From Apostichopus japonicus (Eukaryota > Echinodermata > Holothuroidea > Aspidochirotida > Stichopodidae): DNA of 64,000 nt. Under the pieces are notes generated by a model. That model saw nothing but the letters and a program-made list of their open reading frames with translations. It made no database searches and was not told the origin of the DNA. This document shows, in pieces, positions 504-34,031 of this stretch. The position numbers and the translations under genes were made by a program. The first letter of the stretch is position 1. Each line of letters opens with the position of its first letter. The stretch is from positions 9,025,713 to 9,089,712 of the forward strand of contig NC_092574.1 in the NCBI RefSeq assembly GCF_037975245.1, given 5' to 3'.

Positions 504-3500
504 ATGGGGGCCTTGAAAACATGTTTACGAATAGTAGGATGGATTCCAGTGGTCTTCATCACAGCAGTTATTCTTTGGGCATATTTCGCATATGTTGTTG
601 AATTATGTTATCGTAAGTCGGCCGATTTTGACTTGTATGTTCTCACGAAATTTCACGCAATATTTTGTGCACTGTAGTGTAGGCTCAATGCCGTTCCCGG
701 ATGACTAACATTGGTGTTGTGAATACCGTTGTAATACTAGTAGTACCGTAGAAAAGTAGCCTATACAACTGCTCCGCTTAACTTTAGCATATAATTAGTA
801 AGCTAGAAGTTAGTTACCTTACTGTACCACCGGCCTATCTGATTGATATTGCGTGGAATAAGTGTATAGCGTAGGTAAGTTGGTAATTAAAGGTTAGGTA
901 CAATTATAGAATACAGGGCCATTCATTAACTCTTCCCAGCATCCGGATGCACGGTGTGTCTGTACATGTCCGTACACGTATGACGCCCTCTAAAATCCCA
1001 TCACGTATTTCATTTTGACTCCGCATCCGTGCATCCACCACGGGAGTACTAGGAAAGGACTTAAGAAGATTTTCGAAAAGTCTCCCCATATACCATCACA
1101 TATTTCGTTTTGACTCCGCATCCGCGCATCCACCCCGGGAGTACTAGGAATGGACTTCGATAATTTTTTTAGATAAGTTTCAACATATACCATCACGTAT
1201 TTCCAATACTGGAAGCCCCGCATGTACGAAGATTTTCCACATCAATAGTGTGTCGTTCTTAAAAGGCATCCGTACATGTGCAACGCCCTCTAAAATTCCA
1301 CCACAGAAGTACTAGGAAAGGACTTAGGAAATTTTTGACTCCGCATCCAAGCATCCGCGCATCCACTCAAATAGAAAGAACTTGGACTTTGACATTTTTA
1401 CTCACATATGTACTGGGGTGAGACTGAGCATCCGCGCATCCGGATGCTCAGATAGAATCGTCGAGTGGCCCTGCATTCTATAATTACTCCAAAGGTTACA
1501 TGTGACCTTAGTCAGTATTTTGATATGCCTTCATGACTCTCTTTTTATCACCCACGTTAACTAAACTGAAGTAAAATTGCCGAAAAGAAATGTGTTAGTG
1601 AAATGTTTTCTTCACAACCCGTACAATTATCGTTTGTCTTGTGTTTACTTTTAACGCTGTTCAAATTCGTGTTCTGAAAAAAAATATCACGGTCATCCCG
1701 ATCACCTGATGGTCTTGCAGCTAGAAAACTACTCTGATAATGACAGTATATGTAAATATTTACTTACAATCATCTAAGAATTTTTGTTAACTAAGGAAAA
1801 AGTTAAAGTTGGAAACATGTGTTCATCAATGTAAACGAAAAACCAACTGAGAGACGCCTTGTCTGATAACTGATAAGAAGAAATGTTGAAAGGAAACTTA
1901 CAAAGAAAATAAAATCTATTAGCATACAAAGAAGAATTGTCCAACAGCAACATCTGTAATTTCCAGCCATGTATGCAACATTTTAACTCCTTTAAATATT
2001 CCTTGACTCAAGCCTGACGCCAGGTGTATCTTGTGAATAGTGGACTGTGATTGGTCTAATGTTACCTGTTGCATATTCGTTGTTAAACTTACAGAGCCCT
2101 GCTCAAATGTTTTCTCACTGCATGATAGGCCTGTGTTCTGGGCCGGCTGCGTGCGGGGCTATACATGTCGTATGGTATTGTGGATTGCGCAATGTACCTT
2201 TCAAGTTTTAACGATCATTTTTTGAACACGAACTGTGCTTAATGTGTTTGAAAAGATTTTCTCCATATCCTCTACTGTTAAATGAAGTTAAATAATAAGA
2301 ACAACACGAAGAGGACAAGGTCACCTAACTGATTCACGCATATAAGAGCTGCATAGCCTAATGTTAGGCCTAGCTATCCACCCTCAACCACTGGTAATGG
2401 GGTGTGCCGATCGTAGCTGACAATGTCGTCTAGCAGAAAAGCTTTCTCTTGTTGCAATTTACTCTCATATTGCAAAAAGAACAGTAAATAGGAGAAACTG
2501 AAGTCAACAAATGATGGATGGAAGCTTTAACTTTTTTTTCCAGTATTTGCAATTCACATTTCAGTTTTGTTCGATTTTTTGTTTTTTTGTTTTTTTTTAA
2601 ATAAAAAATAGTACCAAAATTCGGAAAAACTGGTTTCGATACTAAAACCGGTTTACTGTGCAAGCCTTATGTAGGCATACATGCCTATGCATAGGAAAAG
2701 TTTTTTAACTTCAAACAAAGTGTCTTGATTCATAACAATTCACATATTAGCCCCAACTGTGTAGGCCTAACGTTAGGCATATTTGCATTTGTGCCTACTC
2801 AGCCTTAGGAACAGGTTGTAAGGCATTACAGTAGGTGATGATGTAATGAACATTTAAACTCAAGTGCCAATTTTAAAGTGATGACTGCATTTATTCCTGG
2901 TTTAATATTGATCAGGAGCAATATTCTAGCCTTAACTGTTGGATGACTCCTTACAAAGGGATTAATGGATTTGATACTTCTGGTTAAGTTATTAGGTTTT
3001 GTTCTATTCATTCACTGCCTTAGAAACATTTATTCTCCAGTACTGCATATTATGCTATTAAATTATGTGACTTAACCTTTGAAAGGATATCAGATGTTGA
3101 GAACTTTAATAAGTGGCCATCTTAGATGGAATGGGAGTCAAAATGAAGTTGAAGGTTTACTGTCATGTTTGAGGCCAAGGTCCCCCCACAGGACTTAACA
3201 ACTTAACCCCCGGTCTTCTTCTTCTTCTTCGTCATTGGTAACTTCTCACACCCACACACCAAAGTGTGCACAATGCAAACAGTCACCCAATTATATCTAC
3301 AAGTTACCTTGTAAGTCCCCATACACCTGGGTGAAGATAGGCAATGGAGATAAAGTGCCTTAACCATTGACACAACTCCCAATGATCTGGTCTTAGACCA
3401 CAAGTCCACTGCCTTAAAATCACTTCAGAATGGTTCCCAACTTGGCAAAAGAAGCAATACATTTGTGACAATGGTATTCAATTGTTCTACATCATTCAAT

Positions 3501-6500
3501 GCAGTAATGCATCCATGGGTACTGTTTATAATATAATATTTATAATGCTGAGAGAATTTACAGTACTACTTCACAATATCAGTGCTGACTAATATTGTTT
3601 AGAAATGGGGTACTGGTCATGTACACTAAAATAGTTTACTAGATAAATGTGTGTGGTGCAGTATGGTACAATTTGGTCATGAAAAACAGCATTTTGAGAA
3701 ACTTTTAGTCATATACAATAAATAGCTCCGGATAAGCTGTATGATGGATACTGCACCACACAGTGTTCAATATTGAGATATATATGTTGAAAAGATCTAT
3801 AGACCACGTGCATCAGAACCGTAAAGATCTACTGTACTGTTAGGACTGATAAGACGTCGCCTCTGGAGAAAAAAAAAACGCCATTGCTTGTTGAAGATTA
3901 TACAAGAGTGACCATTATTTTACTTCCTAGCAATGCAGAAACATCAACCTTCAAGTTTGAAGGACACCATTACAACTAATAGTGTTAATCTAGGCATGTA
4001 GCAATTAATGAAGTGAGATGAAAAGCATGGTAAACATGTTCTCCTTTGTTGTAAACCGAAACACTGTGCACAGTAATAAGTGTTTTGTTAGTTCAATAGA
4101 TTCCTGAAATCATAGTACATACCATGACATGTACTGTAATTATCATCAGTCATCACTTGATAATTGTTGTGATAATAGAGATCATCCTAAAAGAATCCTT
4201 ATTGTTCATAGAAAGTAAAAGCTGTCAGCACATGCATGCCACAGTTATTTTAATGAACAGTACCATACTACAGTACAAAGCATATTATTGCCCAAGCCTA
4301 GCATATTATGAAGAACGTCGGTGTTGCCCGAGTATAACGTATTGTTTAGTATGTTGGTGTTGCCCAAGCCTAACGTCTTGTAAAGTATGTTGGTGTTGCC
4401 TAAGCCTAACATATTATAAGGTATGTTGGTGTTGCGCAAGCCTAACGTGTTGTAAAGTATGTTGGTGTTGCCCAAGCCTAACGTGTTGTAAAATTGTTGG
4501 TGTTGCCGAAGCCTAACGTATTGTAAAGTATGTTGGTGTTGCCCAAGCCTAACATATTATAAGGTATGTTGGTGTTGCCCAAGCCTACCATATTGTAAAG
4601 TATGTTGGTGTTGCCCAAGCCTAATGTTTGTAAGGTGTCTTGGTGTTGCCAGAGCCTAACGTATTGTAAAGTATGTTGGTGTTGCCCAAGCCTAACGTAT
4701 TGTAAGGTATGCTGGTGTTACCCAAGCGTGATGTTTGTAAGGTATGTTGGGGCTGCCCAAGCCTAACGTATTGTAAAGGATGTTGGTGTTGCCCAAGCCT
4801 AATGTATTGTAAAGTATGTTGGTGTTGCCCAAGACTAATGTATCATAATTATGTTGGTGTTGCCCAAGCCTAACATATTGTAAAGCATGTTGGTGTTGCC
4901 CAAGCCTAACGTGTTGTAAAGTATGTTGGTGTTGCCCAAGCGTAACGTATTGCCCAAGCCCAACGTGTTGTAAAGTTTGTTCATGTTGCCCAAGCCTAAC
5001 ATATTGTTAAGTATGTTGGTGTTGCCCAAGCCTAACGTGTTGTAAAGTATGTTGGTGTTGCCCAAGCCTAACGTGTTGTAAAGTATGTTGGTGTTGCTCA
5101 AGCCTAACGTATTATAAAGTATGTTGGTGTTGCCCAAGCCCAACGTGTTGTAAAGTTTGTTCGTGTTGCCCAAGCCCAACGTGTTGTAAAGTATGTTGGT
5201 GTTGCTCAAACCCAACATGTTTTTTCTGTCTTTCAAATTAATTTGGATTTCCTTCATGCTGTGTTATTAAGTAAAGGACATTATGTTGAACTTTCGTTTT
5301 GATACAATTTTTTTATTTTCTCTCTGCCCATTCACAGTGACAGTGAGAGTTGCCAAGGGTCAACCTTTGCTGTGTGGTGAGTACTTTCAAGTTAATTCAA
5401 TGGCTTTAGTAGAGTAATTGCCAGTCTAAATTGCAAATGATACAATACCAGTGAACATGAGTGTAACTCATTTCGTTTCGATTTGTTTGTTTCAACAACA
5501 CGTGTTACATATAATACAGTCTAAATAGAAATGAATGCACAAACACGGTGTGAAGGAAGTAAACTGAACACTTTCATATTCTGTTGTTTCTATATATTGA
5601 ATGTGGAAAACTGCACATGTTCATATTATGAATGCAATCACATCTTTCAAAAGATATATATGTTAAGTAACTTGTACAATATGCAGGAGAGAGTCTTTAG
5701 GTATCGTTCAATTGGGGAATTCGGAAATCAAAGTTTATCTTTGATTCTTTGATTTAATTTCTCTGGGCAAATGAATGGACTATTCGATCTGTACAGTAGT
5801 TCTGTACAGTGGTTACCTCCTAACATTATAATGTAACTACTGACTTCACGTTTGTTTTCTTTCCCCTTCTAACTCTACTGTTTTCTTCTTGCTTTTACAG
5901 TATTGTACCTGCTGTTGTTTCACTTTTTCTTGTTTATGTTCCTATGGGCCTACTATCAAACAATATTCGGTAGTCACCCTGGAGTACCTGGAGAGGTTTG
6001 TGTGTTTTTCTCGTTTAAATGTTCATTTTGAAACAGTTAAATTCATTAACGGCATTAAGATCACTTTCACATGTAAGCCAAATATATGATCAAAAACCAT
6101 AAAAACTGCCTGGTCAGTGGAAACTGGAATCAAAACCCTGACCACCAAGTTATTTAAGCCATGTTGTGCATTGGTGTGTATCTTTGTGTCACTCTGACCG
6201 GGTTGTGTTATATATTGGGCATAAATTTGCTACTCTTTTGTAGATTAAAATTGGTCTACTGCTACTCAGTTATGAAGCATTTAAACCACATGCAGGAAAC
6301 TTTGTGTCCCACAAACTCAACGGAATGTATTATTTTTTGTTTGCAAATCTTGGAGCTTTGTAGTCATTTCCTTTGTTCATAGTGTGATTTTAGTTAGACC
6401 AAGTAATAGAATATTTTTAAGTATTTTTTTTTGGCTGGAGTAAATCAGATTGTGGCTTAGTGAACACATCTTGCTGTTTTAATATCAGCTTACCTCTGGG

Positions 6501-9500
6501 AACTCTGATATCTGACTGCTTTAGAAATATGTATATATCTGTTATGTTCTCAGTCAGCTCACTCAGTGCCAGGAACTACCTCCCCCCTAGGGCTCCATAC
6601 ATGCCCCCACCTTACACCCATAATTACAATTTAGAGGCACAACCCGACATAGAAGTGGGTATGTGTTGCCTGGAAGTGTCCATGGGGGCTCTTTGGCCTT
6701 GGGGTCCCATGATCCTAAGCTGCTCTTAGGTACTAATCTCATATGTCTATTGTATTTATCAAGCACCGAGTTGACTACTGTTGCATGTCATTAGTAATCT
6801 TACAAAATAGATGAACCGTGTAATAATTGTCTTGTTTGTTTAGTCTGCCAACATTAATTGTTTTCTTTCTTAAAGAAACAGTGAAATCGATGTAATTCCA
6901 AAATTTTTATTTCTCGCTCTTCCAGTTTTACTTATCAAGTGATGAGGTTCAAAGAATTGAATCAGAGGATCGATCCGGGGAACAACAAGAAATTTTGAAA
7001 GAAATCAGTAGAGATAAAGCCCTACCTGTCTATACGAGAACATACGGTGGCGGTAAGTGTTCCGAACGACTCATCATTTGATTGAATTTACACTGAATAC
7101 TGTTCAGATCATCGTTCATAGTATGTCATTGAGCACTGTGCAGCTATTAGAACATTTTCTGTCAAATTCAAAACTACTCTTGATCAAAAGGAAAGCTCAG
7201 TTGACAATGCTGAAGGTTTCAAATCATTTTATCTTTAATGTCACAGGGTTGGCAGGATTATGTTATCATTCTGTTCATCTCAAGACCCAATAATTGTACC
7301 GTTAGCTGTTGTACAAACTTACCCCCCCTCCACCTAATCTCTCAAATCACCAAATTTTGGAGTATGTTGTAGTTCGACCTCTTTTTAAAAATGACCAACT
7401 TTATTGTCTGCTTGGAGAGGATCCAGCAACAGCCATCCGTGTTTTGACATGGAATGACCACAAATATATATGTTTCTTTTTCGCTCTTTTCACTAGGAAT
7501 ACGCTACTGTCACATCTGCAAAATTATTAAGCCAGACAGATGCCACCATTGCTCAGTCTGTGATCGGTAAGCCATCAATTACTCGCCGTAATTTTTCAAA
7601 ACTTTTAAGATGTGATCGAAGGGATCATATGCACTACAGTATGTGAATATGTTCTGTCCCGTTGACAATTGTCAATGTGAATACTTCTTCCTGTCAGAAA
7701 TTGTTGTTTTGCTTGCTACAAAGCAGCTCTGCAGGTTTATGTGAGTTACAGATAACCTGTGTCATGTGCCTCAAGTCTTGATAAAGGTTCTAGTAAATAA
7801 TATCAGTTTGTACAAAGTTAGTTTAATAGTGAAATGAATATTGGCAATCAGTATACTATATAGTGTCATTGTTCCTGTAATCAACTGTACTATAATAACA
7901 AAGTGTTTTTGAGAGGTCTCCAAAGGAGGTGGATGCACAGTAAAGCATAGTGTTAAGGTCAATACTTACTGTGTGGTGCATGTATCACACTTGATATTCT
8001 GGGAACAAATTTCAACTTTTCATTTCTTCTGTTGATGCCTGTGGGCAAACTTATGAAGATGAGCATAAATAATCATAAAAATTCTTGAATTTTTATGATG
8101 ATAAAGCCAGTGCTCAGTCAGCATCAATGGATTGCCTAGAAATGCAGCTGTAGATAATGCTTGAAATGGATCAGCACTCCAACTTCAATTGTACAGAATG
8201 GAGTAATCTATGGCATTGTATTTAATAACATTCTTCTAATGGCGTCTCTGTATTATGTGATGTCATGGTATGGTGTATTTATAACACATTTTGTATTGAG
8301 TCTGTAATGTATTACACAGAGTATTTGAATGATATCATGGACTCTGATCTCCATGGTTACATGGTAAGGAGTCTGCATTGAATAATTTATCTGGTATCGC
8401 ATTGCAAAATGGACAAATTGCTATGCAAAATGGGCAAATTGCTCTACAAAAGTGCAAAGATGCATAGCAGTTATTGTACACAGAACGTCCACAGAAAGTT
8501 CATAGCCTTCATAATTGCAATTGAAAACGTTTACACTAAATTATTCCTTGGTCTGTATGATAGTATTGCATTTGTTGTCCCTAAAACAGACCTTTGACCT
8601 ATTCTATCTTAATACTTATTTTCTTTTCTCTCCCCCTGAACAGATGTATTCTCAAAATGGATCACCACTGCCCGTGGGTGAACAACTGTGTGGGCTACGG
8701 CAATTACAAGTTCTTTGTCTTATTTTTAATGTATGCCTTGCTTTTCTGCCTCTATGTTGCTATTACTACATTGCCATACTTTGTTCAATTTTGGCAGGTG
8801 AGTTCAAAGAGATTATTATAGCTATGTACTAAGAAATAAGCATTATGTGTGGCAATGATGACTGTCAACAAAGTTTTATCGCTTCAAATGTCCAAACTTC
8901 AGTAAAGTTGAATATGATACGAGAAGAATTACAATACTCCGGGTTTTTCAGAAAGTTACCTTCACAACATGTTTGGAATGCTCTATTATAACAGAATAAT
9001 TGATGATAATGAGGTTGGCACCTCATCTCAGGTTGTAATATTAATTCTTGTATTTCAACCAAAATGTATAATTTTTTATATCATCATGACACACTAGGAA
9101 AGTGTAAAACAAACAGTTGAATAAAACATAGGAATATTAGCTGAGAAAAAATAAAATAATTAGGGCCAAACAAGAAAGAAAATTCTTTGGGAGGGGAATA
9201 ATGTACCCCGACCAGGCATAAGAAGTGCACTGTTGCAGTATCAAATGATTTCGAGTTTTACTCTTTTGTAGTCTCGTTGTGACTGGTACGAGACCTTCAA
9301 CGGTAACAAAAAATAATGGGAAACTGTATAATAGATCTTTATGGAAGCTACTTCTTTTAAAATGGTCCGCATGGATGGTACAGTTTGTCAATGCCAACTT
9401 CTGATGTGTTTTCAGAGACTACAAAAGGTTTCAAAGAATATTCTGCAAAAAACTTTAATGACATAGCAGGATTTTAGCGTGTTGAAACTATCCATCTATG

Positions 9501-12500
9501 TGTCTTAATGCTCTTTCCTTAGTATCACAGGTTTGATTGTAGAGTGTTTCCTGTTGTCTACCTGTTGGTGCTTAAGTTGTATGGACAGGTACTCTTAGTG
9601 TTAACCCTAGTTATCTGAAATGTGATACTAAATATTTGCCATAAAGACAAGTTTATAGAACTGATATTGTTTGTAGCACTAATCCCTTTTTTTAATACTT
9701 TTTTTGTCATCAGATGATGAGAGATATATTTGGAGATATTAATCCATTGAATGTTAATCTTTTTCCATAGTTGCTATTTTTATGCAAGACTTCTTAAAAT
9801 TTGCACCTGTTAGTGATTTTGATCTAGCTAAGCCAGATTTCCACGGCTAGGTCGGATTAATGCTTTGATCTGTCAAATTTCCCATTACACCTCGGTTTTT
9901 GCCAAACTTGAGACTTGACCATTACAGAATTCAAACTTGGGTCGGTCACATATCCATGAATAGTCAGTCAATATTTAAGCCCCCCAAAAAATCTCCATGG
10001 CTGATCCCGCATAATATCCTGGTCAAATCACCATGGCTTTGCCTGTTTAATACCTGGGTCTGTCGTATTTTCGTTTATAGTCTCGCTTCATTCCATGGGT
10101 CTGTAAAATTTCTCTGATTCGTTGAAATTTTGTACCCCGGGTCGGCAATATATTCAGGACTTGGTCCACCATGTACAGTATGTCTGCCAAAGTTCCACAA
10201 CTAGACCTGTTTTGTAATTTAGTCTGCCAAATTATCCCTGTAGAGTTCCTCTTTTAATACCTGGCTCAGAACTTATTCGATACACCGTTTCATCCCCTAT
10301 TCTCCGAACCTATTTAGACCAACATTTTGTAAAAATCAATTTTAAACGAACACAGTCGTATAATTTTGAATGCTTTCTCTTACCCTGAACAGAAGGGCAT
10401 TGACAGCCACGGTGCTGGCGGCTTCCAAACGGTCTTTCTCTGTCTTCTAGCAGCTATGTTTAGTCTGAGTGTGTTAGCACTAACGTGCGTACACATTCGT
10501 TTGACTTTGACAAACCAGTCGACGATAGGTACAAAATAAACCTTGCGGCTCTCCTCTGCTTGTTTGACACCCTTCATCTCAAGCTTTCCTGCATGTCTTA
10601 CCACTCTGCCCATTTCACTTTTTACCCAAGCTGAACAATTGTACACAAAGCTGTACTTAATAACCATACCAAAAATAAAATCCCATTTTCATTTTCTTTG
10701 CAAAATGATGGATAAGAGAATAATATCTTTGTTTATGCAGACACAAATCTCAGTATAAAGACATAAACATTAATATTAATAAATACAAATACATAAACCA
10801 GTCTGGTATTAAACATTGTGATCTTAATCTTGGGATTAGTTGATTTACTAGATATAATATTTAAGTTTTCCATTCTGGTTTTGCATACGGAAATATTTTG
10901 TTAAACACTTGGTACAGTAGTCACTCTGTCCTTCCAAAGTTGAAGACAGCAAAACTTGCTTGAGCAATCAACATCTTCCATCCTCAAGACGTCTGATCCT
11001 TACAACCTCCATGCAAGAACTATAACTTCGATCCTCGGGTACTTATAATATATGTTATCTGTCACTATACACCAACTCTGCTAGTAATCTAACTCAGTTT
11101 CTTTGTCACCGTAAATCAACTGGTACTCAAAATGAAATCCTCATGTAACTTAAATCAAACCCTGGTAGTAGTTTAACAATCTCACAATCAGATCATATGG
11201 TACTCTGAATCAAATTATTGGGTTCCCTTAATCAAGGCCCTTTGTAACTCAAAATCACATCCTCTGGAACTCTAAAACAGACCCTCATGTAATCTATTTC
11301 AAAATTCTCAAGTACTCTTAGCTCAAATTCTCTGGTACACTTAATCTAGTCCTATGTCACTCCTCATCAAATTATCTTGTACTCCTATTTCAAATTCTCT
11401 CGTAATCTAAACCAAAATCGGCAGCTACTTTTAATCCAATTTAAAACAAGTTCTCTGGTACTCAAGATCGATTTCTTTCATATGCTTTTTTTTATTTCAA
11501 AATAAAATCTTCTGGTACTCAAATTCAAAATCCTCTATAATCTTGGAACAAGTTGTATCTTGTACTCTAAATAAGCCTGGTTGGTACTAACATCGCATTT
11601 CTGTTAGCCCGACCTCATGGTATGATATCGAAACAAGGGAATAGTAGTCAGTTATAGATCAAACATTTCTCCCATGTTGAAATATTTGTATATTCTTTGC
11701 AGCATAGCCAATCTTTATAGCCTTTCCAGTTGGAAAGCCTTGCTCCATGGCAGTGTTGGTCTTAACGCCAGCTTTCTCAATTGATCAATTAGCTTCATTC
11801 TCTGTCTTCCACGTAGGATATGCAAGACAGCGATGCCGCCCGTTTTCACATCCTCTTCCTCTTTTTGGCGTCGATAATGTTTGCAATCAGTGTCACAATT
11901 CTGTTCTGTATGCACATCAGACTGAGCTTGGTTAATCAGAGCACTTTAGGTATGTACACGACGATGCCTAAACAATCGTGATATTTGCTTCAAACAGATT
12001 CTTGGGAGGTTTTGAAAAAAAAAGAAAAACGACAAAAAGTAACCTGAAATTGATCTGGATGGTATTCTTTCTATGTCTAAAGCCTTAAATTGATGGCAAA
12101 AAAATGTCAATTTCTTATCATATTTAATAAAAAATTATGGTAAGGTGAAAAAAGGTTGAAATATCTGAAGTATCGATGAAAGAAAAAACAGAAAATAGAT
12201 TTCCCAAAACGAATGATAATCTAGCTAATGTGAATAGTGGTCATATGGTTGGAAAAAAATATTCAGGGAGAAAGTATAATATAGTCTATATTGTAAAGTG
12301 CGATGTCTTCTCCATTCTTGCGACAGGCATGAAAATCTATGCATTTCTGTTTTCTGCTTTTCTTTCGCATATTTGCAGTTTTCCATAAATGCTCACCAAA
12401 TATTCATTAATGTCCTATTGGAATTAGAGCCCATTTTTTTGGCATTAGTATTTCAATGCTTTGCATATTACAGCTATCCAGCCATCATTGCATTCATCTC

Positions 12501-15500
12501 CATTAGTCACTCATTGGTCGTCATAAACTTGTATTCTTAGTCTTTCTTGAATTTCGATTTTAATGCAAAGGAAGCAGTTGGTACTAAGAAGAGGGTTTCC
12601 CCTGGAATTCATTTTGTGAGGTAGCTGCCTCTCTGATTTTCGCTCCCACCTCGCAAAAATATTACCAACCTCACTGCTTCAGAGAAGGAATAAGAAACGC
12701 AATGATTGCAATCCTATATTTTATACTCATGCCATCATCTGACATTGAAAAAAACTTGTCGGTGAACACAAAATTATAGCAACAAGTAGATCTCCTAATT
12801 TAACATAGCATTTTGATCTAATTTATTAAGATGATTGACATTAGCATGGTTAACAACATTTTCCTGGCTATCATCCCCATCCCCCCCTCTTCCTCCTGGT
12901 ATACTCATATCCCTCCAGTGTAATAAACTAGTTACCGCCTCTCCCAGGAGGAATCCCAGAAGAAACCCTGTAAGAACTTACTAAAACAGGAGGCATGACA
13001 CCAACCATCATAATGGCCCATGTGGTATAGATATTGTGATGATCGAATTCCCCAAAAGTGCTATTAAAGAAAATTCTTCCATTTTGTGAGGTATCAAAGG
13101 TGTCATGTTCCTTAAAACACATGGCTGAAGACTTGAGCAAGTCTATATTTAACATCATTATGCCATCACATGTGCTTCAGTTTATATGTTTCCTGATGTA
13201 TTATGATGTTCACATTCTGGAATGTAGGTGGGTATTTTTCAAATGCTGTTCAGCCAAAATATTGAAGTTCATAGCATGACCTAAATGATGGCATTGGTCC
13301 AAAGTGTCAAGAACATTCTACCTTGAAAATATTACAAGAAGAATGAAACAGAATGAAAAAAAGAGATAGAGAATTTAAAAAACATTCCCAATACTAGTGG
13401 CAGTATTAAAGATCCACAAAATGACCCAGACACAACTCTAAAGCTACAATATCTCTTGAAAGTAGCAAGAGCTTTCTTTAGCTTCGTTTGGAGAGTTTTT
13501 CATCACATTATCTCCAAAGCTATGGTGGTAGTTTGGGAAATGGTTCTTCTGTAAGTTCTTGGTGTTGGTTTATTGTTCTTGATTTCAATATATTAATGTT
13601 ATTGGTTTATGGTATTATGATATATTATTGTAAAACTAAACATTTTACAAAGGAATTTGATCTAACCAGACAGAATCCCCCTGTTTTATGTTACTTGTAG
13701 TTCCATCTATGTGGTATCACGTTAACATTGGATGGCAGGACTAGAAGTTCCCTTTCCTCGTCAGTCTAAGGGGAAAGTATTTAAATCAGGAACTAAAGAT
13801 GATATTTCCAAGTTTTGAAAAAAGAACTATTTTTTTGTGCATTTTGATTATGTTGTGTTAGGTTTTGTTTCACATATTTTGATCTTTCTCTCTATTGTTG
13901 AACTTTAACCTTTGTACTCTTTATTCAGAGTCATTCCGTTCGCCCATATTCCGCCACGGACCTGACAAGGAAGGATTCAGCCGTGGTTCCGCCAGTGGCA
14001 ACTTCCACGACATATTTGGGAGCAGAAAGAGCCACTGGTTTCTACCGATGTTCACGAGGTGAGGGGCGATAGCCGACTCATTTTGGGATTTGTCTTTCAC
14101 TTTTGCATGGCAGGCCTTGAAATTCAGACTGTCTACTGGCTCGATGCCAGTGGATTTTGCTGTTTGCCAGTAGGAAAAAGGACAGAAACTGGCAATTGCC
14201 TGCAAGTAGACATTAAACACTTTAAACACATGGTAACCAAGTCAAGTGCTGGTCGTTGTTTTAAACGTCTTGGCTAATTTTAAAATGTCTAAAAAGTCTC
14301 ACCAATTCATGGAGAGTAAACTACTGGTTGTGATAATTAGCGAATACTGATATTGAAGATGTATCAACTTCTGATTGATGCTGACTGTGCATCCTAGTGT
14401 AAGCTTTATTACAGTGTTATGGTATTTTATTTGACAGGGTGAACTGCTGAATGCATGCTTGAAATCACGATTCAGACTTTACCTATATACAAGGTTTAAC
14501 TTAAGTGGATCATTGATATTAATGTTCTTGTATATCATGTCTAATATTAGTGCTGGTGACGGGGTGAACTGGCCAATGCAAGCCCGTGATCAAGACTCGG
14601 ATCGTCTCTTGGATGATGACCGAGATGAAGATCTAAGTCCTGGAGAAGAGTCTCCATCTCGAGGTAATAGCATCATCATGTTTCATACTAGTTCTCTGCC
14701 TTGTTTATATATATACTTCATATTTTTGTTAATTACTATATAATAAAATACATCACAAATCTATAGTTTATGTTCACATATACATATTAATTAATTAACA
14801 AGTAGAACAATAGTGAGGAAGAACAAAGATGAAATTTATGGATATAAGAGATTTATACAACTCAAGGTTAATGTCTCATCAGGTGTACAAACCAGTGGTC
14901 ATTAACACTCTGTACCTACTTCAAATTAACTATTTAATGAACTCAACAGCAAATAGAGCCGAATTGAGATCATCTTGCCTAACCCTTATTCTTGGTATTA
15001 CAAACAACTAGGTATAATCTTGTTGATTGCTTAAATTGTTGTCTATGGCCTCTATAAATCATTTCTAGCTGTCAGAAACACCGGAGGCTAGAGCTTGGGT
15101 ATCATGTCATTGATTCCTTAGGTCTTGTACTCTGTGCACTCTATATTTCCTGTGTTAGAAAAACAACCTATGCTATAGATGAGGGATCATTTCATTGGTT
15201 CCTTAGGTTTTTTCACTGTGCACTACATTTAGATTTCCTGTGTTACAACCTAGGCCAGAGCTCAGGTATCATCTCATTGGTTCCTTAGTTATTGTACTCT
15301 TTGCACTCTACAGTATTTATATTTCCTGTGTTACAAACAACCTAGGTTATAGCTGAGGGATCATCTCATTGGTTCCTTAGGTTTTGTTCACTGTGCGCTA
15401 CATTTAGATTTCCTGTGTTACAACCTAGGCCAGAGCTCAGGTATCATCTCATTGGTTCCTTAGTTATTGTACTCTTTGCACTCTACAGTATTTATATTTC

Positions 15501-18500
15501 CTGTGTTACAAACAACCTAGGCTATAGCTGAGGGATCATCTCATTGGTTCCTTAGGTTTTGTTCACTGTGCACTACATTTAGATTTCCTGTGTTACAACC
15601 TAGGCCAGAGCTCAGGTATCATCTCATATATTCCTTAGTTATTGTACTCTTTGCACTCTACAGTATTTATATTTCCTGTGTTCCAAACCACATCGGCTAT
15701 AGCTGAGGGATCATCTCATTGGTTCCTTAGGTATTTTTCACTGTGCACTACATTTAAATTTCCTGTGTTACAACCTAGGCCAGAGCTAAGGTATCATCTC
15801 ATATATTCCTTAGTTATTGTACTCTTTGCACTCTACAGTATTTATATTTCCTGTGTTCCAAACAACATAGGTTATAGCTGAGGGATCATCTCATTGGTTC
15901 CTTAGGTTTTGTTCACTGTGCACTACATTTAGATTTCCTGTGTTACAACCTAGGTCAGAGCTAAGGTATCATCTCATTGGTTCCTTAGTTATTGTACTCT
16001 TTGCACTCTACAGTATTTATATTTCCTGTGTTCCAAACAACATAGGTTATAGCTGAGGGATCATTTCATTGGCTCCTTAGGTTTTGTTCACTGTGCACTA
16101 CATTTAGATTTCCTGTGTTACAAACAACCTAGGCCAGAGCTCAGGTATCATCTCTTTGATTCCTTAGGTTTTGTACTCTTTGCACTTTATTTATATTTCC
16201 TGTGTTCCAAACAACATAGGCTATAGCTGAGGGATCATCTCATTGGTTCCTTAGGTTTTGTTCACTGTGCACTACATTTAGATTTCCTGTGTTACAACCT
16301 AAGCCAGAGCTCAGGTATCATCTCATTGATTCCATAGGTCTTGTACTCTGTGCACTCAAGTTACATTTCATGTGCTACAAACCTAGGCTAGAGCTGAGGG
16401 ATCATCTAGGTCTTGTGTTCTGTGCACTCCATCAAACCTTAGGAATCGTCTCAAAATATCATTATATACCTAAAACTTGTGCCCTATTCAAACATTCTTA
16501 CAGTATGTTACCAATACTGCCTTACAGCACGCTCTCAAATATTTCTTGTGTTAACAGCAATCTAGACCAGAGCTCAGGGACCCTGGTTGTTCAAATATTG
16601 TGCTCTATGAATTTATCAAACATGTTTATCTGATATATATCTCAGTTGACTCATGAATATTTTGTTTATTTATTTTAATTTTTGGTGCCTCTTTCAGATA
16701 CCCAACAATTCAAGAAGAGTATACAGGCTGGCACAAAGTACGACAGCACAAGTAACGATGTGGTAGTTCCTATTGAACCAAACACAGGTACCCAATAATG
16801 CTTGATGCTACAGCAACATGGTTACATGTAAGAGCTAAAGTGCAGTTTGCTTACCTATCTCATCCATACTAACAAATATACACATCTCTAACTTCCAAAT
16901 CTATGCTAATTATCTTCTCTTTTTCTCAAGGTCACTAAGATGTGATCTTTAAATTTTCTTAATAAACAAAAATTAAGAAAAATATATTTGCAGCTGCATC
17001 AGAAGTTATATTTGCCCTTTTTTGCTATCAAGAAGAATCTAAAACATCGGAAAGAACGGAAAGGATATTTGTAACTGAAACTGTAATTACTATACATAAA
17101 TAAAATACAAACTACACTAGTGATGGATAAATTTCTCTTGTTCCAAACATTTAGCTCATATGTTACCATTTGCTTGTGAGCCTATACTTGGTTACATTTT
17201 TTTGAAAATTATTTTCTTGGTTACATGTTGTACCATGAACATGGGACTAATACTCACAGTTGTTCTTGTTGTAAATGTCTCTCCATTGAACCTAGTAAGA
17301 TCCAACTAGTCGGTTGTAAGTTGCTTGAATTCCTTCAAGCAGTCTTTTACAGAGAAAGCATGACAGCTTTTGCTGCCATAAGTCACAGTCTTAAGTTTGA
17401 ATCCATTTTTCCTTATTTGTTCAGACTACGACTTACCGCAGTTAGTGCTTCTTTACCTTGAAAATGATGTGTAAACCTTGCCATGACAGAGTTAATCAGT
17501 CGAATGAGCCTGTGAATGAAGTAAATGGAGTAGAACTAGATTTGAGCAGCTTTTTAGGAGTCAAAAAGGAAGTTAAATGCCTGGCAAGCAAAATGTTTTG
17601 TAGATAAAAAGTTATGATTTCTTATTGTAACTGCTTTCTTTCACAGTATTGAAAGGAAAATCAGAGACAGTTAACTTCTTAATCAGGTTATCCCCAACAT
17701 CAGTTTGTTAAAGTTTATTCACAATTAACTGATCAGAGTGTGGGATGTTTACATTAAATACTCTCTTGTCTCCTTCTGTTTGTAACCAGTCTCCATTGGG
17801 GTGAGTTTTTCAGCGGGATAGGTGCATGTGCATTTGACGACTAGCAAAAATATTACGTAGGTGAATTTAATTTCCAAGGTATCTTACTTTTTGTTAAGCT
17901 TACAATGCTGGTTCCACCAATAATGTTCACTACGAACGAAACATGTTTGCTCCTCGTTTATGTAAAAGATTTTCTAATCCAAACTGATCTTCTTCATTAA
18001 AGGACTTCTTCACCAGATACTGTAGATGACTCCTATTGATATTTATGGTAATTGTATAAAAAATTGAAAATGGTACCAACATGGAACCTGCACTGGAAGT
18101 AATATTCAACTTCGCCATAACTCTTATTTTTAGGGGGCGAAAAAAGCACAACTTATCAACCTGTTGGGGTAGGACTTGAAAACAACAAAAGTCTTTTGCC
18201 ATCACTGCCACCTACAAGATTCATCGTTTAATTTCTTTCTCTTTTCATTTTCTTTCTTGATCTTTATTTCAATCAGTAGTAAATCTGCACCATTTACAGC
18301 TTCACCCAAGAATAGAATTAGCAAAATAAAAAAGCAACGCAATGGCTTTCCCAAATGTAATTTCTTTAGTAAAACAAAGGTTCTGTAGTTAGCAATGCCT
18401 GCCTTGGCAATGAAGTGGATCTAATCTTCACTCTAGGGGAATGGTCATTATTACGTTCATAAAATGGGATCCTGCAGGTTGTGGGCCGAGACATGTCGAT

Positions 18501-18663
18501 TGAAACGTAGTCACACAAATCTAGAACCACAGTCCACTGTGCTGCTCCTGATATGAATGGCCTTTTCTCCCATCTCTAATGGTGTTACAGATACAGAGAA
18601 AATGGTGTTCTTGGCAGGCTATTAATAGTGGTATCAGGGAGGTTATAAACAACATTATACTGT

Positions 18664-18716
<53 letters not shown>

Positions 18717-20338
18717 TACTTCCATGTCATGCTTCAAAGCACCTGTACTGACAGTTTTGAGTCGCATGACATATCCTGTTACTATCAGATGAAGGGTTCG
18801 TAAACCGTTCACAGTTAGCACAAGTGATTCAAAGCATTCTATGTGGGATAGAGTGGTATTAGCGTTGCCCCAACTGGTTGAAATTGCTAAGATTACAGAT
18901 GGTATTAAAGAAGCCTAATCTCTCAATATCATTGGTAGGGTCAGACAATCAGTCCCCTTTTACATATATGTTAATTCATATATGAACACTGGTGTTTGGT
19001 ACTAATTTGTTTGTTTTGTTATTTGATAATTTTAAAGTATCTCATCCTGGCCTTTGTTCCATGGACATATTATGGAATTTCAGGACTATTTTATGCATGA
19101 TGTAATTATACCAATGTCCAACATCTCAGGTAGTATGCTATAAAAGATTTCTCTCTTTTCGTATCTCAACTTTGCCGTAGAAAAACCTGCCTTCGTGCAG
19201 CTGTTCCTGATTTCAAGTCTCCCTTCATGCAAATACACAGTCATGCTGCACAAAAAGTATTTGATAGTTGGTGCATATGAAATGTCACACATGATTTTTG
19301 ACTACCATAAAGAAAATCTAAATAAAATAAAACTATTAGCAAACTGCTTATCCACTAGAGAGCCTGTGTAATAGAATGTGTAAAAGTAAGTTGGCCTGAC
19401 GTTTCGATCCTAGCAGGATCTTCTTCAGAGGCTAAAGAAGATCCTCTGAAGAAGATCCTGCTAGGATCGAAACGTCAGGCCAACCCACTTTTACACATAA
19501 AGAAAATCGGGCGTGACTTCAGACCCAATCATCAACAATTTAACCCTGGCTTACCAAACTGTCAAAGTAGATGCGCCTAGCCATACCCTGCAGTACTCTC
19601 CTCCTAACATCAACTGGTTTAACATTGGGCTATAATTCCTCTTTCTTCCATTTATCCTTGAAATGAACAAGTTTCAGCATGAACTTCAGTCTAAATGAAT
19701 TGAAATGTGCATTATTGATGTTTCATTGAGACAGTCAGCCCAAGACTTGATTTCCGAGGCAAGTGTCTGGCGGACAGTATGGAACGTAATAAAAATTTTA
19801 ACAGTTGTCCAAGACAACCACATTTCTTTTCGGACGACCAAAATCACCCTTGAACGTTGTCTGGCAGACGACTCGTTTTTAACATGAAATTCAGATTGCA
19901 TTATAACATATAATCCCAATCACCACTTTTTAGAGATATTGGAAGTTTGAAACAAAAATTAGTAGTAGGACTATGATCCACCTGAAGGGGGAATTTTACT
20001 GCTCCAAAGCTGCTGTTCAAATTATCAAACGTACACATCTCTACTCCAGCGTACACATAGATCATTCTCTTGTTAGTTTGCAACAGTTTTTGGACATGAA
20101 CCAAAATTAAGACCTGGTTTGTTTGAAGGACCACAGGAAAATCCCTTAAAAAAATTGCTCTTGGAAGGCCTTTTTATGGTGGTTACCCTAGTCGCAGTGG
20201 TAGAGCACAGCCAATTAAACATCGCATATATATTTATATTTCTACTGATATCTGCTTTTTTCATCTGTATTTTCTGTTTTGACAGGTGATAGAGTCCAAC
20301 TTGTCCTAGAGCCTGGTCACATTGCTGGAACCACTTAA
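504..20338 (+). CDS. ZDHHC20: Palmitoyltransferase ZDHHC2/15/20-type (11 coding exons)
   Basis: Protein S-acyltransferase that moves palmitate onto cysteines of membrane proteins. It is expected in Golgi or plasma membrane with four membrane spans. Exons: 504-612, 5338-5376, 5901-5995, 6926-7052, 7497-7566, 8644-8797, then 10393-10528 or 11817-11949, 13929-14058, 14551-14663, 16698-16787, 20286-20338. All junctions are GT-AG and in phase, giving 371 or 370 residues, the size of vertebrate ZDHHC2/20. Membrane segments 1 and 2 come from exons 1 and 3. The Cys-rich domain (about residues 126-175) has the zinc Cys/His pattern and the DHHC motif, with catalytic Cys156. After the last span come an S-T-x-E form of the TTxE motif and the aromatic/FG motif typical of the family (NFHDIFG). 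The tail is acidic. Assignment to ZDHHC20 rather than ZDHHC2 or ZDHHC15 is uncertain; this may be the single pre-duplication gene. Confidence 0.93.
897..1490. mobile_element. 594-bp MITE with 8-bp target duplication
   Basis: The ends are inverted repeats: GG plus three mismatched bases, then AATTATAGAAT-(A/G)-CAGGGCCA on the left, with the reverse complement on the right. AAAGGTTA flanks both sides exactly (889-896 and 1491-1498), so the element boundaries are secure. The inside holds two roughly 97-bp tandem copies (about 997-1190), each with gcatccrcgcatccac blocks, and a shorter third. There is no coding capacity. The 8-bp duplication fits hAT, P or Merlin type DNA transposons. The GG termini lean towards Merlin, but this is inference. 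Confidence 0.8.
1500..4285. other. ZDHHC intron 1, no gene seen
   Basis: A-T rich intronic DNA between the MITE and the 36-bp array. It holds scattered short ORFs on both strands without domain features and a short CTT-rich run near 3220. Nothing here is supported as a gene. Confidence 0.6.
4289..5222. repeat. 36-bp minisatellite in ZDHHC intron 1
   Basis: About 26 imperfect copies of a 36-bp unit with core gttggtgttgcccaagccta followed by acgtattgtaaagtat. The array ends about 115 bp before exon 2. Its 36-bp period gives a 12-residue repeat ([12 protein letters not shown]) on the minus strand and an open plus frame. These reading frames are by-products of the repeat, not genes. Confidence 0.93.
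5996..8643. other. ZDHHC introns 3-5, no extra gene
   Basis: Apart from exons 4 (6926-7052) and 5 (7497-7566) and the possible exon 3b, this stretch is ordinary A-T rich intron. Short ORFs are unremarkable, and I see no repeats longer than a few tens of bases. Confidence 0.5.
6554..6654 (+). other. Possible cryptic exon 3b of ZDHHC (PPPY motif)
   Basis: An open stretch in intron 3 follows ttatgttctcag and ends at gtgggtatg. It starts in phase 1 and ends in phase 0, the same as exon 3, so it could replace exon 3 without a frameshift. It would encode about 33 residues rich in Pro and Tyr, including [11 protein letters not shown], a PPxY-type WW-binding motif. Replacing exon 3 would remove the second membrane span, which argues against a normal enzyme isoform. 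It could be chance. Confidence 0.25.
8798..10392. other. ZDHHC intron 6 with degenerate repeat
   Basis: Intron between the DHHC exon and exon 7a. From about 9830 to 10280 there is a very degenerate repeat with recurring phrases such as gggtcggt, ccatggctt and aatacctgg. It looks like an eroded tandem array. No gene is seen. Confidence 0.4.
10393..10528 (+). CDS. ZDHHC20: ZDHHC alternative exon 7a (TM3-TM4 version A)
   Basis: This exon is 136 bp, enters in phase 0 and leaves in phase 1. It has an acceptor after ctcttaccctgaacag and the donor gtacaa. It encodes 45 residues: a short polar loop, a hydrophobic span and ...[12 protein letters not shown]. The split codon completes Glu with the next exon. 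It aligns with exon 7b at about 22 of 44 positions and replaces exactly the same piece. Version A is less like vertebrate paralogues than 7b, so it looks like the derived copy. Including both exons would break the frame. Confidence 0.85.
11080..11590. repeat. Degenerate tandem repeat between exons 7a and 7b
   Basis: Many variants of ctctggtactctaaatcaaa recur at roughly 25-35 bp spacing through the intron separating the two alternative exons. Copies are too diverged to give a fixed period by eye. It is probably an old minisatellite. A role in exon choice is possible but unsupported. Confidence 0.5.
11817..11949 (+). CDS. ZDHHC20: ZDHHC alternative exon 7b (TM3-TM4 version B)
   Basis: This exon is 133 bp, phase 0 to phase 1, with acceptor tcttccacgtag and donor gtatgt. 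It encodes 44 residues with ...[11 protein letters not shown]... at the start of the span and ...[12 protein letters not shown] before the split Glu codon. The FH-x-LFL pattern matches what is known of vertebrate ZDHHC15/20 in this segment, so 7b is probably the ancestral version. It lies 1288 bp after exon 7a. Confidence 0.88.
11950..13928. other. ZDHHC intron after exon 7b, nothing seen
   Basis: A-T rich intron of about 2 kb with no recognisable gene or strong repeat. A purine/pyrimidine-rich patch near 12880-12960 is low complexity. Confidence 0.45.
15063..16420. repeat. About 175-bp composite tandem repeat in ZDHHC intron 9
   Basis: Around seven copies of a roughly 175-bp unit. Each is made of two related halves of about 88 bp that share ggtatcatctcattggttcc and tttcctgtgttacaa but differ between them (ttgttcactgtgcactac versus ttgtactctttgcactct). 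Phrases starting ggccagagctcagg recur near 15253, 15428, 15603 and 15779. Edge copies are shorter and more diverged. This is a higher-order satellite-like array inside an intron. Confidence 0.9.
18664..18713. repeat. (TA)n microsatellite
   Basis: Uninterrupted TA dinucleotides of about 50 bp in ZDHHC intron 10. The Ile-Tyr repeat reading frames over it are artefacts. Confidence 0.97.
19378..19496. repeat. Near-perfect foldback, about 53-bp arms
   Basis: The left arm (19378-19430, starting gtgtaaaagtaagttggcct) is followed by a 13-bp spacer and its almost exact reverse complement (19444-19496). The only visible mismatch is in the outer third. It contains gacgtttcgatcctagcagg. Transcribed RNA would form a long hairpin. 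It is probably a small foldback transposon in ZDHHC intron 10. Confidence 0.9.
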
Positions 20339-21105: not shown

Positions 21106-21735
21106 TGAGTATGTTATTTGCTGCTCACACAAAGTATGTATTTTGCTGCTCACACAGAGTATGTTATTTGCTGCTCACACAGAGTATGTTATTTGCTGCT
21201 CACACAGAGTGTCATTTGCTGCTCACACAGAGTACGTTATTTGCTGCTCACACAGAGTATGTTATTTGCTGCTCACACGGAGTATGTTATTTGCTGCTCA
21301 CACAGAGTATGCCATTTGCTGCTCACACAGAGTATGTTATTTGCTGCTCACACAGAGTATGTTATTTGCTGCTCACACAGAGTATGTTATTTGCTGCTCA
21401 CACAGAGTATGTTATTTGCTGCTCACAGTGTATGCCATTTGCTGCTCACACAGTGTATGCCATTTGCTGCTCACATGGAGTATGTCATTTGCTGCTCACA
21501 CAGAGTATGTCATTTGCTGCTCACACAGAGTATGTTATTTGCTGCTCACACAGAGTATGTCATTTGCTGCTCACACAGAGTATGTCATTTGCTGCTCACA
21601 CAGAGTATGTTCTTTGCTGCTCACACAGAGTATGTTCTTTGCTGCTCACACAGAGTATGCCATTTGCTGCTCACACAGAGTATGTTATTTGCTGCTCACA
21701 CTGAGTATACTATTTGCTACTAACACTGGGTATGA
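21106..21735. repeat. 25-bp minisatellite, open in three frames
   Basis: About 25 copies of a 25-bp unit, gagtatgttatttgctgctcacaca in slightly varied forms. Because 25 is not a multiple of three, each reading frame cycles through the same 25-residue repeat every 75 bp. None of the three plus frames meets a stop, giving overlapping ORFs of 293, 199 and 201 codons. It lies 0.8 kb after the ZDHHC stop. Nothing around it looks like a coding gene. Confidence 0.93.
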
Positions 21736-27550: not shown

Positions 27551-30500
27551 TTAGAACCTGTCATGCATTTCTACAAGTCTGCTGGAGCCGAAACTCTCAT
27601 TTTCCAATCTTTTCACTTTGATCTGCGAACAAAAATGACAAAAGATGTGGAATGAAATAATTAAATGATCCCGTTTTGTATGATAAAGGGTGCAATGAGC
27701 CCAAAAATGTATTATTGCTTGGATAGTGTGAATTCTTCACAAGGTATCAAAAATAAGTTGACCAATAAAGGGAAAGGAATTATGAGTGAGGTCATCGGTG
27801 TAGCAGGAAAATTAGTCCTTCTTGTAAGATGTACCTGTCACACGATATACATTTTCTTTTATGGAATTAAGCCGACAAAATATCCCGAATTCCGTATCTC
27901 ACACGAAACAGTTAAATAGTAAGAACAGTCGGTCCACTACGTGGTAAGTTATTTTGTACATTAAGGTACTTCTATCCGGTTACATTAAATATTCTTATCA
28001 ATCCTTCAGTCCCCACCCCCACCCGGTACCAGACCCCGTTTTACAAATGTCTTCCTTCTGTCAGATTTTACCTCCATGGTCAGACTCAGTCCAATATTTG
28101 GTACATATATTAAGCCGTGTTTTTAATATAGCCTATACCCTTACCATAAGTCCGACAACTGCAACCAATAACAATGCTACCATCATAGCAAGTATCACAA
28201 TAGTAGCAGTCGCTCCTCGGCCACGATTGTAGCTGTTTTCGTTGAAGTGTTTTGCTGCTTTAGGATTCACTGAAAAGATAAACACAAATATCGTCCCAAT
28301 GTATTTTGATTTCGTGATTCTATATACAAAGTATACACGGTTACTCAGCGAGCACTTATACGGATAGCCTAATAACTGTATATATAGACCCGTTTATTAT
28401 GTAAAGTAATTCAACCGGGCTTGATGCATGCAAAAGAGAGAAACGTTTTCTACTCCCGTCAGGTTAAGTTACTCCAAGTTGTTTGTAAATCGGGATGTAC
28501 CAAAATCAGACGGTCCAATCCGATCCAGCAACATTTGTTTTCACAACAGTACTGGTTTCCTTATATCAATTAAAATGGTTCTTCGCGCAACGTCAGGTCA
28601 CACTAAACATACTTCAACTTTTTTAAGGTTATCTTACAGTATCTAAATAATCAACTTAAAAATTTACCCCTCTTCTCAGTGCCCTGCTACCCCTCTCGAT
28701 ACCCACAGCTCCCCATCCGACACCACCCAAGCGTCTTGTCCAGATTTACTGAAATAGTTTGTAACGAAAATACAATTTGACTTTCTACTCTATAACTTCA
28801 TAAAATCTTACCGTGTATTTATCTGATCACCTGTAGGCCTATGTGGTAAAGCCATTTTGTTAGGGGGGGGGGGTGGGCGGGGGCGGGGGGTTCCAAAAGT
28901 GGCGATGTTGATAATATTGGGATTTGTTAGGCCTTTTCGCTCATGTTCGTGAGACACATTTGCACTCGTCAATTATCTCTTACCTTTATTATCGACGTGT
29001 TTATTCTTGTCCTGGTTTCCTGTATATATTTGATAGTTATAACAAGAAAGAGACGGAAGAATAATTAAGTGTTCGCACAGATGTAATGCTGTCGCCGATA
29101 CAAATATGAAGCAATTCTACATTTTGTTCTATATATATATATATGTCCATGACAATACACATTTGGTCGACACCATACACAGATTCGTGATAGTATACTG
29201 TGTATATGGAAGGCATGGTTTATTGCTGGAGATAGGGCTATGACAGCCCGAGTCCACTTTTCAGTGGACTCGGACTCCGGGCTCAAGTTGTCTCGGACTC
29301 GTTTAGCTGGACTCGAGTGTTGATGCAGATGGTATAGTGGATTTGACTACATTGTTAAATAATTGCACTATATTATAAGATATATGATGCACATCTCGTA
29401 ATGAAAATATTCAATTAAAAACAAAAGACGTCTTGATGAACAAACCTTTATTTCCTGTAGTGATTCCATGGGATTTTGTTCTCGGTATTTCGTTACGACC
29501 ATTTTTCAATGTTGTTCTTTGTTCTATCAAAATAAAGATATACAAGTTGTTTACCTTTAACACACTTTTACTTCATATGCTGAAATATCGGTTGAAAGAT
29601 AGGCCTAAATATTGCCACTCCTCATCTTCGATATATCCCCCCACTTGCATCCACACCACCCATAAATGTATTAGAATAAAAAAGTGGTACTTTAAGCTTA
29701 GTAATATATCACATTTCTTATTGACTTACCATGGTCGGTGGAAGTGGGTGTATTGCGACCTGGTGAGTCGGTAGGCTTTGTGGGCGTGGTTATCGGTGTG
29801 GTTGTAGGCGTGGTTGTAGGCGTGGTTATAGGCGTGGTGGTAGCCATGGTCGTAGTGTCGTCTGGACGTGATTCAGTAGTCGTGACGCGAGTTGTAGGAA
29901 CTTGTGTGGTTGCTTCTGTAACAAGAAAGTAATATCGAAACACACACAAGATATTAGTAATAAAATAATAAAAGTATGGAAAAAATGGTTGAGCATGTCC
30001 TCAAATATATACCAGAATAGATTATTATTGTCAAAGGGACAAACAAGAATTTACCTGACGTGGCAAACCTTGTCGAATCTTAAAATACATCCTAGGAGAG
30101 GAGGATCAAGAAAAATAGGTACTGTCTCCTTTCGCCGCAGAATGTATGGAATTTGTAGTCACGTTTGTGAAAAATGGCGCCATGTACCGTGAAAACATCG
30201 TTCTCCGACCGCATAGCTAGAACAATAATGTGTACTATATCTGCATATGCTTATCACAATAGTGGTGTCACAGTAGATATACGACATCATAATGATCACA
30301 CGGTGGTCACATGTGGTCATGAAAAAAGGAGAAAATGAGGGAGGCTCATCCATCTTTCATTACGACATTCGTAGTCAACCATGCTTAAACATGATCATTC
30401 TCTTAAATTGTTCAGTCGAGAACAGACTGTTACAACGCAGGCCTATCGTACCCCCAACAGAGGTAAATATATCATAGGTGTGCCCATAACAATGATGGCT

Positions 30501-32537: not shown

Positions 32538-32594
<57 letters not shown>

Positions 32595-33997: not shown

Positions 33998-34031
<34 letters not shown>

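Follow-up and report, generated by a model that had tools for sequence, protein, structure and literature searches.

The closest described systems are of two kinds. One comprises sets of mutually exclusive, tandem-duplicated exons, as catalogued in the main text of a human survey (PMC5740500) and captured by the WebScipio criteria for their prediction (PMC3228551). The other is alternative splicing in a gene for a DHHC enzyme: C. elegans dhhc-4 has a regulated, cell-specific cassette exon (alternative exon 10) that changes the C-terminal tail of the protein (PMC13247117). Alternative splicing receives a single, general mention in the available text of a review on how zDHHC enzymes are regulated (PMC7586229). 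In the titles and abstract beginnings surveyed from the open-licence literature, no DHHC enzyme was described as having mutually exclusive exons. DHHC, ZDHHC and palmitoyl terms were also absent from the main texts of the human landscape of mutually exclusive exons (PMC5740500), the survey of human tandem duplicated exons (PMC9741552) and the prediction study (PMC3228551). A preliminary reading of this locus from the sequence alone (the sequence-only reading) had known of no such arrangement in the ZDHHC2/15/20 group, and our searches, within the same titles and abstract beginnings, likewise gave none. The type of splicing is known, and its occurrence in a DHHC enzyme and in the TM4 helix appears to be new.

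The locus described here shares features with both systems. As in dhhc-4, a DHHC enzyme gene would be alternatively spliced; there a cassette exon alters the tail (PMC13247117), whereas at this locus one membrane helix would be replaced by another through a pair of homologous exons. These exons, 7a and 7b, are like known mutually exclusive tandem-duplicated exons in length, phases, splice type and homology, and in that including both breaks the reading frame (PMC5740500, PMC3228551). In contrast to the human sets, the use of only one exon is here a prediction from the sequence. We consider it very likely that 7a and 7b arose by tandem duplication and are mutually exclusive, within what is apparently the sole ZDHHC2/15/20-type gene of the animal, with one exon per transcript and two resulting forms of the enzyme.

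The gene and its two TM4 exons

We analyzed a 64-kb stretch of DNA (the window; C14:9025713-9089712) with a GC content of 37.5%. On its + strand is a ZDHHC2/15/20-type gene, delimited by similarity and reading frame. The form of the gene that uses exon 7b has eleven coding exons; exon 7a and a candidate alternative last exon are additional. The features of the gene, in window positions, are as follows.

504-20338, + strand: ZDHHC2/15/20-type gene
504..612, + strand: exon 1, with the start codon at 504 and TM1 (from frame and similarity to human DHHC20)
5338..5376, + strand: exon 2 (from GT-AG borders and frame)
5901..5995, + strand: exon 3, with TM2 (from GT-AG borders and frame)
6926..7052, + strand: exon 4 (from GT-AG borders and frame)
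7497..7566, + strand: exon 5, where the cysteine-rich domain begins (from GT-AG borders and frame)
8644..8797, + strand: exon 6, encoding the DHHC motif and TM3, common to both isoforms
10393..10528, + strand: exon 7a, alternative TM4 exon of 136 nt (133 nt if a second AG is used, with the start at 10396)
10529..11816, + strand: intron between 7a and 7b, 1288 nt, with a degenerate repeat array at about 11100-11590
11817..11949, + strand: exon 7b, canonical TM4 exon of 133 nt, the copy nearer to the human and zebrafish proteins
13929..14058, + strand: exon 8, encoding the second half of the TTxE-type motif and the PaCCT region
14551..14663, + strand: exon 9
16698..16787, + strand: exon 10
18134..18231, + strand: exon 11, a candidate alternative last exon that continues the frame of exon 10, with a stop codon at its end and AATAAA at 18325
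20286..20338, + strand: exon 12, the last coding exon, with the stop codon

The candidate exon 11 would end the protein with LPPTRFIV, and the usual last exon 12 ends it with PGHIAGTT. Combined with the choice between 7a and 7b, it could allow the gene to yield four isoforms. Elsewhere in the window there are minisatellites at 4288-5221 (intron 1), 15085-16407 (intron 9) and 21107-21734 (after the stop codon), with units of 36, 83/175 and 25 bp, respectively. On the - strand at about 27900-38000, open reading frames resemble, by eye, exons of a receptor-like gene with lectin-like, Ig-like, EGF-like and Thr-rich parts, and one on the + strand at 47405-47668 resembles a catalytic exon of what is presumably the ubiquitin-specific protease family.

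Assignment to the ZDHHC2/15/20 subfamily comes from similarity across the whole core, the DHHC domain, the four TM segments and the C-terminal domain. Compared with solved structures, the core of the spliced protein matched human DHHC20 (6BML) with an E value of 3.9e-105 and 6BMS, which we take to be zebrafish DHHC15, with an E value of 2.6e-99. The matches of the same protein to ZDHHC9 (E 3e-24) and ZDHHC5 (E 1.4e-20) were far weaker. Both isoforms scored well above the cut-off of 28.7 bits for the Pfam DHHC family (PF01529), at 136.7 bits with 7b and 135.0 bits with 7a. The exon peptides alone scored below it (16.5 for 7b and 14.7 for 7a).

We searched the whole genome (671,581,487 bases in 35 contigs) with the 7a isoform and scored the best 30 candidates. 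Among these, the top match outside the window was 51% identical over 68 residues (57.8 bits) and none exceeded 59% identity, so the gene looks like the only member of its subfamily in this animal. The only separate exon-like matches to the swapped segment among the 30 were 7a and 7b themselves. A few other matches extended into that segment, including long alignments, at 30-36% identity, of two other DHHC genes. Within the window no third copy of the exon rose above noise (the next best tblastn match had an E value of 0.39), and genome-wide the best 30 candidates contained no additional exon-like match. By the same identity limit there was no recent retrocopy that would record a spliced form among these candidates, although an old one could escape such a search. 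DHHC domains in intronless open frames of 295 and 306 aa were present at C22:9140420-9140836 and C8:10402124-10402546; at about 30% identity to the protein, these are other DHHC genes, which may have arisen as old retrogenes. A bacterial and archaeal collection gave one match, a contig filed as a Verrucomicrobiaceae MAG. Its DHHC gene is of eukaryote type, with 41% identity over the best segment, and is probably contamination. No relative of the protein was found in a viral collection.

Exons 7a and 7b are both open, are bounded by GT-AG and run from phase 0 to phase 1, and each joins exon 6 (end 8797) to exon 8 (start 13929) in frame. The acceptor and donor are ccctgaacag and GTACAA for 7a, and ccacgtag and GTATGT for 7b. 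The 7a acceptor has the NAGNAG form (CAG/AAG), and splicing at its second AG would give 7a the same length as 7b. In a single BLASTP comparison the two peptides aligned without a gap, with 20 of 39 residues identical and 27 of 39 positive (E 6e-13). The sequence-only reading had described exons of 136 and 133 bp, both phase 0 to 1, and had seen HIRL and NQST in both peptides. The coordinates, splice borders, open frames and peptides agree with this description; its count of about 22 identities over 44 aligned residues is in fact 20 of 44.

We looked for other such pairs in the gene with a WebScipio-like scan of the introns neighboring each of the nine internal exons, collecting AG..GT stretches that had an open frame and suited the exon in length and phase (839 candidates and 530 antisense controls), with criteria modeled on those of PMC3228551. 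The 7b/7a pair had a BLOSUM score of 0.45 relative to the self-score, compared to 0.005 for the best antisense stretch. The runner-up was the 39-nt exon 2, at 0.19, equal to its own antisense control, and the remaining seven exons scored below 0.10. Exon 7b is alone among the nine internal exons in having a homologous partner clearly above the antisense control.

The pair could in principle be an assembly artefact or a recent local duplication, with haplotype copies placed side by side, and the introns are indeed rich in repeats. However, the two exons differ at 55 of 117 aligned bases, and the flanks that were compared share only short matches (E 0.09 or worse). We give this explanation a vanishingly small probability.

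Probable retention and age of exon 7a

Exon 7a could instead be a dead duplicate. Two features by which it falls short of 7b would favor a pseudo-exon that is never spliced in: its donor, GTACAA, is weak, and it is the more diverged copy. Of 39 residues, 15 are identical between 7a and human DHHC20, 19 between 7b and human and 20 between 7a and 7b; a three-sequence distance estimate from these pairwise identities assigns about 11.5 replacements to the branch of 7a and about 7.5 to that of 7b. When used alone against the solved structures, the 7b peptide found DHHC20 with an E value of 3.4e-4, and the 7a peptide did so at E 1.9, behind a designed protein (E 0.18). Against a dead duplicate, 7a is open over 45 codons, has fitting phases and a strong acceptor, and has kept TM4 and TTxE residues even though synonymous sites look saturated. 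At the TTxE position, whose Thr and Glu contact the catalytic domain (PMC8059564), both isoforms read STxE; the second Thr and the Glu are kept and the first Thr is Ser, as in 6BMS.

The appearance of saturation comes from the codons. Where 7a and 7b encode the same residue, 13 of the 20 codons differ (NG86 dN 0.51, with dS not computable). The base differences are distributed as 17, 13 and 25 at first, second and third codon positions over the 39 codons. Identical bases number 14 of 39 at third positions compared to 26 of 39 at second positions (Fisher p 0.008), a modest excess when taken alone.

We simulated neutral change over the 39 codons, counting runs that had 12 or fewer replacements and kept an open frame (20,000 runs per rate; one genome and a simple model). 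Runs passed in 70% of cases at 0.1 substitutions per site, in 20% at 0.2 and in 1.4% at 0.3, and in 0 of 20,000 at each of 0.5, 0.75 and 1.0. Given the saturated synonymous sites, the true neutral distance should sit in the upper part of the simulated range. Because neutral drift gave retention in none of the runs at 0.5 substitutions per site or above, 7a has probably been kept as protein, and we treat this as the chief argument on that point. In a cruder test, placing all of the DNA differences at random on 7a left 20 identities in 0 of 5000 runs. With half of them on 7a, 4383 of 5000 runs kept at least 20 identities and 2670 of these were also open; this similarity would survive in most runs on a dead duplicate, a case that is opposed only by the saturated synonymous sites. 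Taking these points together, we regard a dead duplicate as very unlikely, and we continue with the reading that 7a is a functional alternative to 7b.

To place the duplication in time, we compared residues in human numbering, anchored on Cys156 (PMC9006032); helix limits were taken from alignment and hydrophobicity, not from coordinates. Seven residues (205, 215, 229, 232, 233, 236 and 239) are common to 7a and 7b and unlike both vertebrate proteins, human DHHC20 and zebrafish DHHC15. Within 204-242, 7a alone of the two copies agrees with human at three residues, and 7b alone does so at seven. Because of the seven shared residues that differ from the vertebrate proteins, the duplication is most likely an old one that took place in the animal's own lineage once this had separated from the chordates.

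Proposed splicing of one exon per transcript

Transcripts that depart from one-only use would be out of frame. The sequence-only reading had stated that including both exons shifts the frame, and this holds: together they comprise 269 nt, which is no multiple of 3. Inclusion of both gives a protein truncated at 282 aa, and skipping of both gives one truncated at 246 aa. From the exon lengths, the premature stops lie about 350 nt (both exons; stop in 7b) and about 190 nt (neither exon; stop in exon 9) upstream of the last junction. Stop codons farther than 50-55 nt upstream of the last junction are expected to trigger nonsense-mediated decay, so decay is expected for both classes of transcript.

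The same arithmetic would suit a regulatory (poison) exon, in which 7a is added beside 7b to cause a frameshift and decay, tuning the level of the enzyme and yielding no second form. The both-exon frame, which stops inside 7b far upstream of the last junction, is a typical target of nonsense-mediated decay. But a poison exon would not need a homologous TM4 peptide, a matching phase and a nearly equal length, and 7a has all of these. We judge a poison exon to be highly improbable.

The splice sites of the two exons are unequal. We scored them with a small matrix made from the nine other donors and nine other acceptors of the gene. The 7a acceptor is strong, with only 0.7% of the 1050 AG sites in the gene scoring better, and its donor is weak, with 23.5% of the 1310 GT sites scoring as well. 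Exon 7b has the reverse combination, a weak acceptor and a strong donor. On this small matrix, some constitutive-looking exons are equally weak (donors 1 and 10; acceptors 8 and 9). A 15-nt pyrimidine stretch in 7a (10433-10447) is 93% identical to the tract just before 7b (11795-11809), which may be a shared site for a regulator or chance.

We considered several known ways of preventing joint inclusion and rejected them. The intron between 7a and 7b, at 1288 nt, speaks against a steric block. There was no U12-like donor among the 11, which gives no support to a U12 mismatch, and the AG-free zones upstream of the exons are only 35 nt (7a) and 22 nt (7b), which gives no sign of a distant branch point. 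Pairing between introns was set aside since, for all three intron pairs, the best duplex of the real sequence was weaker than that of a single mononucleotide shuffle (real -29.9, -28.7 and -30.0 kcal/mol; shuffled -32.5, -32.3 and -32.2 kcal/mol, respectively). Between the two outer introns, the real duplexes ranked second to sixth were stronger than their shuffled counterparts, to which we give no weight with a single shuffle. A TGCATG, presumably an Rbfox-type site, is located 62 nt after 7a; the + strand of the window has 30 copies of this motif, one of them equally near exon 8, and it was also given no weight.

The frame shift is the only mechanism of enforcement that has a sign in the sequence. 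We suggest that 7a is spliced into some transcripts and 7b into others, and that one-only use would be enforced by the frame and nonsense-mediated decay together with regulators, perhaps acting through the unequal splice sites. One exon per transcript, as the sequence-only reading had proposed, appears to be the best reading of the frame, the phases, the splice borders, the homology and the saturated synonymous sites with a retained protein.

Predicted effect of the exchange on the enzyme

The two predicted forms would differ in residues 199-242 (human numbering), which span the lumenal loop, the TM4 helix and the first half of the TTxE motif, STxE in this protein. The DHHC catalytic domain, the helices TM1-TM3 and the C-terminal domain would be the same in both. 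The sequence-only reading had described the exchange as one of TM3-TM4, which is too wide, as TM3 is encoded in the common exon 6 and only the loop between TM3 and TM4 is swapped with TM4. It had further placed the swapped helices around the acyl-chain cavity. This stands for TM4, one of the four helices that form the cavity (PMC8059564 and PMC9105814); TM3 is not part of the swap.

The cavity could be the site of the main effect. On this explanation the exons are mutually exclusive as proposed, and the swap alters the preferred chain length of acyl-CoA, not the choice of partner. Residues reported to close the cavity are Ser29, Tyr181, Val185 and Leu213 (PMC9006032), or Ser29, Val185 and Ser217 (PMC9105814). 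Only 213 and 217 lie in the swap. At residue 217, in the ceiling of the cavity, the 7b form has Ser and the 7a form Ala; residues 209, 210, 216 and 228, on the cavity side of an ideal helix wheel, also differ. The wheel was centered on 213 and 217, from the papers, and on 220, 224 and 227, assumed from helix periodicity. In addition, the 25 residues of TM4 (208-232) have a smaller side-chain volume in 7a (3510 cubic angstrom) than in 7b (3802 cubic angstrom).

Two observations point away from chain length. Residues 213 (Leu), 220, 224, 227 and 231 are identical in both forms. In the simulations of PMC9105814, S217A, S29A and L213A did not lengthen the cavity singly, although V185G and V185G with S217A did. 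Independently of the swap, the shared parts of the protein differ from human DHHC20 at the tip of the cavity, with Phe at the position of Tyr181 and, by alignment, Ala at that of Ser29. The 7a form would therefore pair Ala at 29 with Ala at 217, a pair that the available text of PMC9105814 does not mention. We consider a change in chain-length preference to be rather unlikely as the main effect.

The sequence-only reading had offered either acyl-chain length or partner choice. The first is weakened by the residues at 213 and 217, and the second is the better guess because substrates have been proposed to dock on human TM4 at a hydrophilic ridge that faces the lipid (PMC9105814, section 2.6). 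Over residues 208-232, 7a has three aromatics and five S/T/N/Q residues, compared to five and three in 7b. We infer that the swap would mainly alter the membrane contacts of TM4, and with them the docking of substrates or partners, more than the length of the acyl chain. The differences between 7a and 7b had, however, no overall bias to one face of the ideal wheel: residues were identical at 5 of the 10 positions on the cavity side, 3 of the 6 at the sides and 4 of the 9 on the far side.

If the proposal is right, the animal would have two natural enzymes that are alike except for a single loop and a single membrane helix. Such a pair would bear on how DHHC enzymes choose their substrates, since comparing the two could show whether it is substrates or acyl chains that TM4 selects. 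A lipid-transferase would also join a class of splicing that is enriched, according to the main text of PMC9741552, in channels and other membrane proteins. The diversity of such an enzyme would then have come by a route other than gene duplication.

Vertebrates have three genes in the ZDHHC2/15/20 group, which arose by gene duplication. We tentatively raise the possibility, with more doubt than confidence, that this animal makes two enzymes from its apparently sole ZDHHC2/15/20 gene by means of an interchangeable TM4, one canonical and one slimmer and more polar, which dock different membrane-protein substrates. A switch of helix, and not of tails, would then set the choice of substrate, and exon duplication would have taken the role that gene duplication has in vertebrates.
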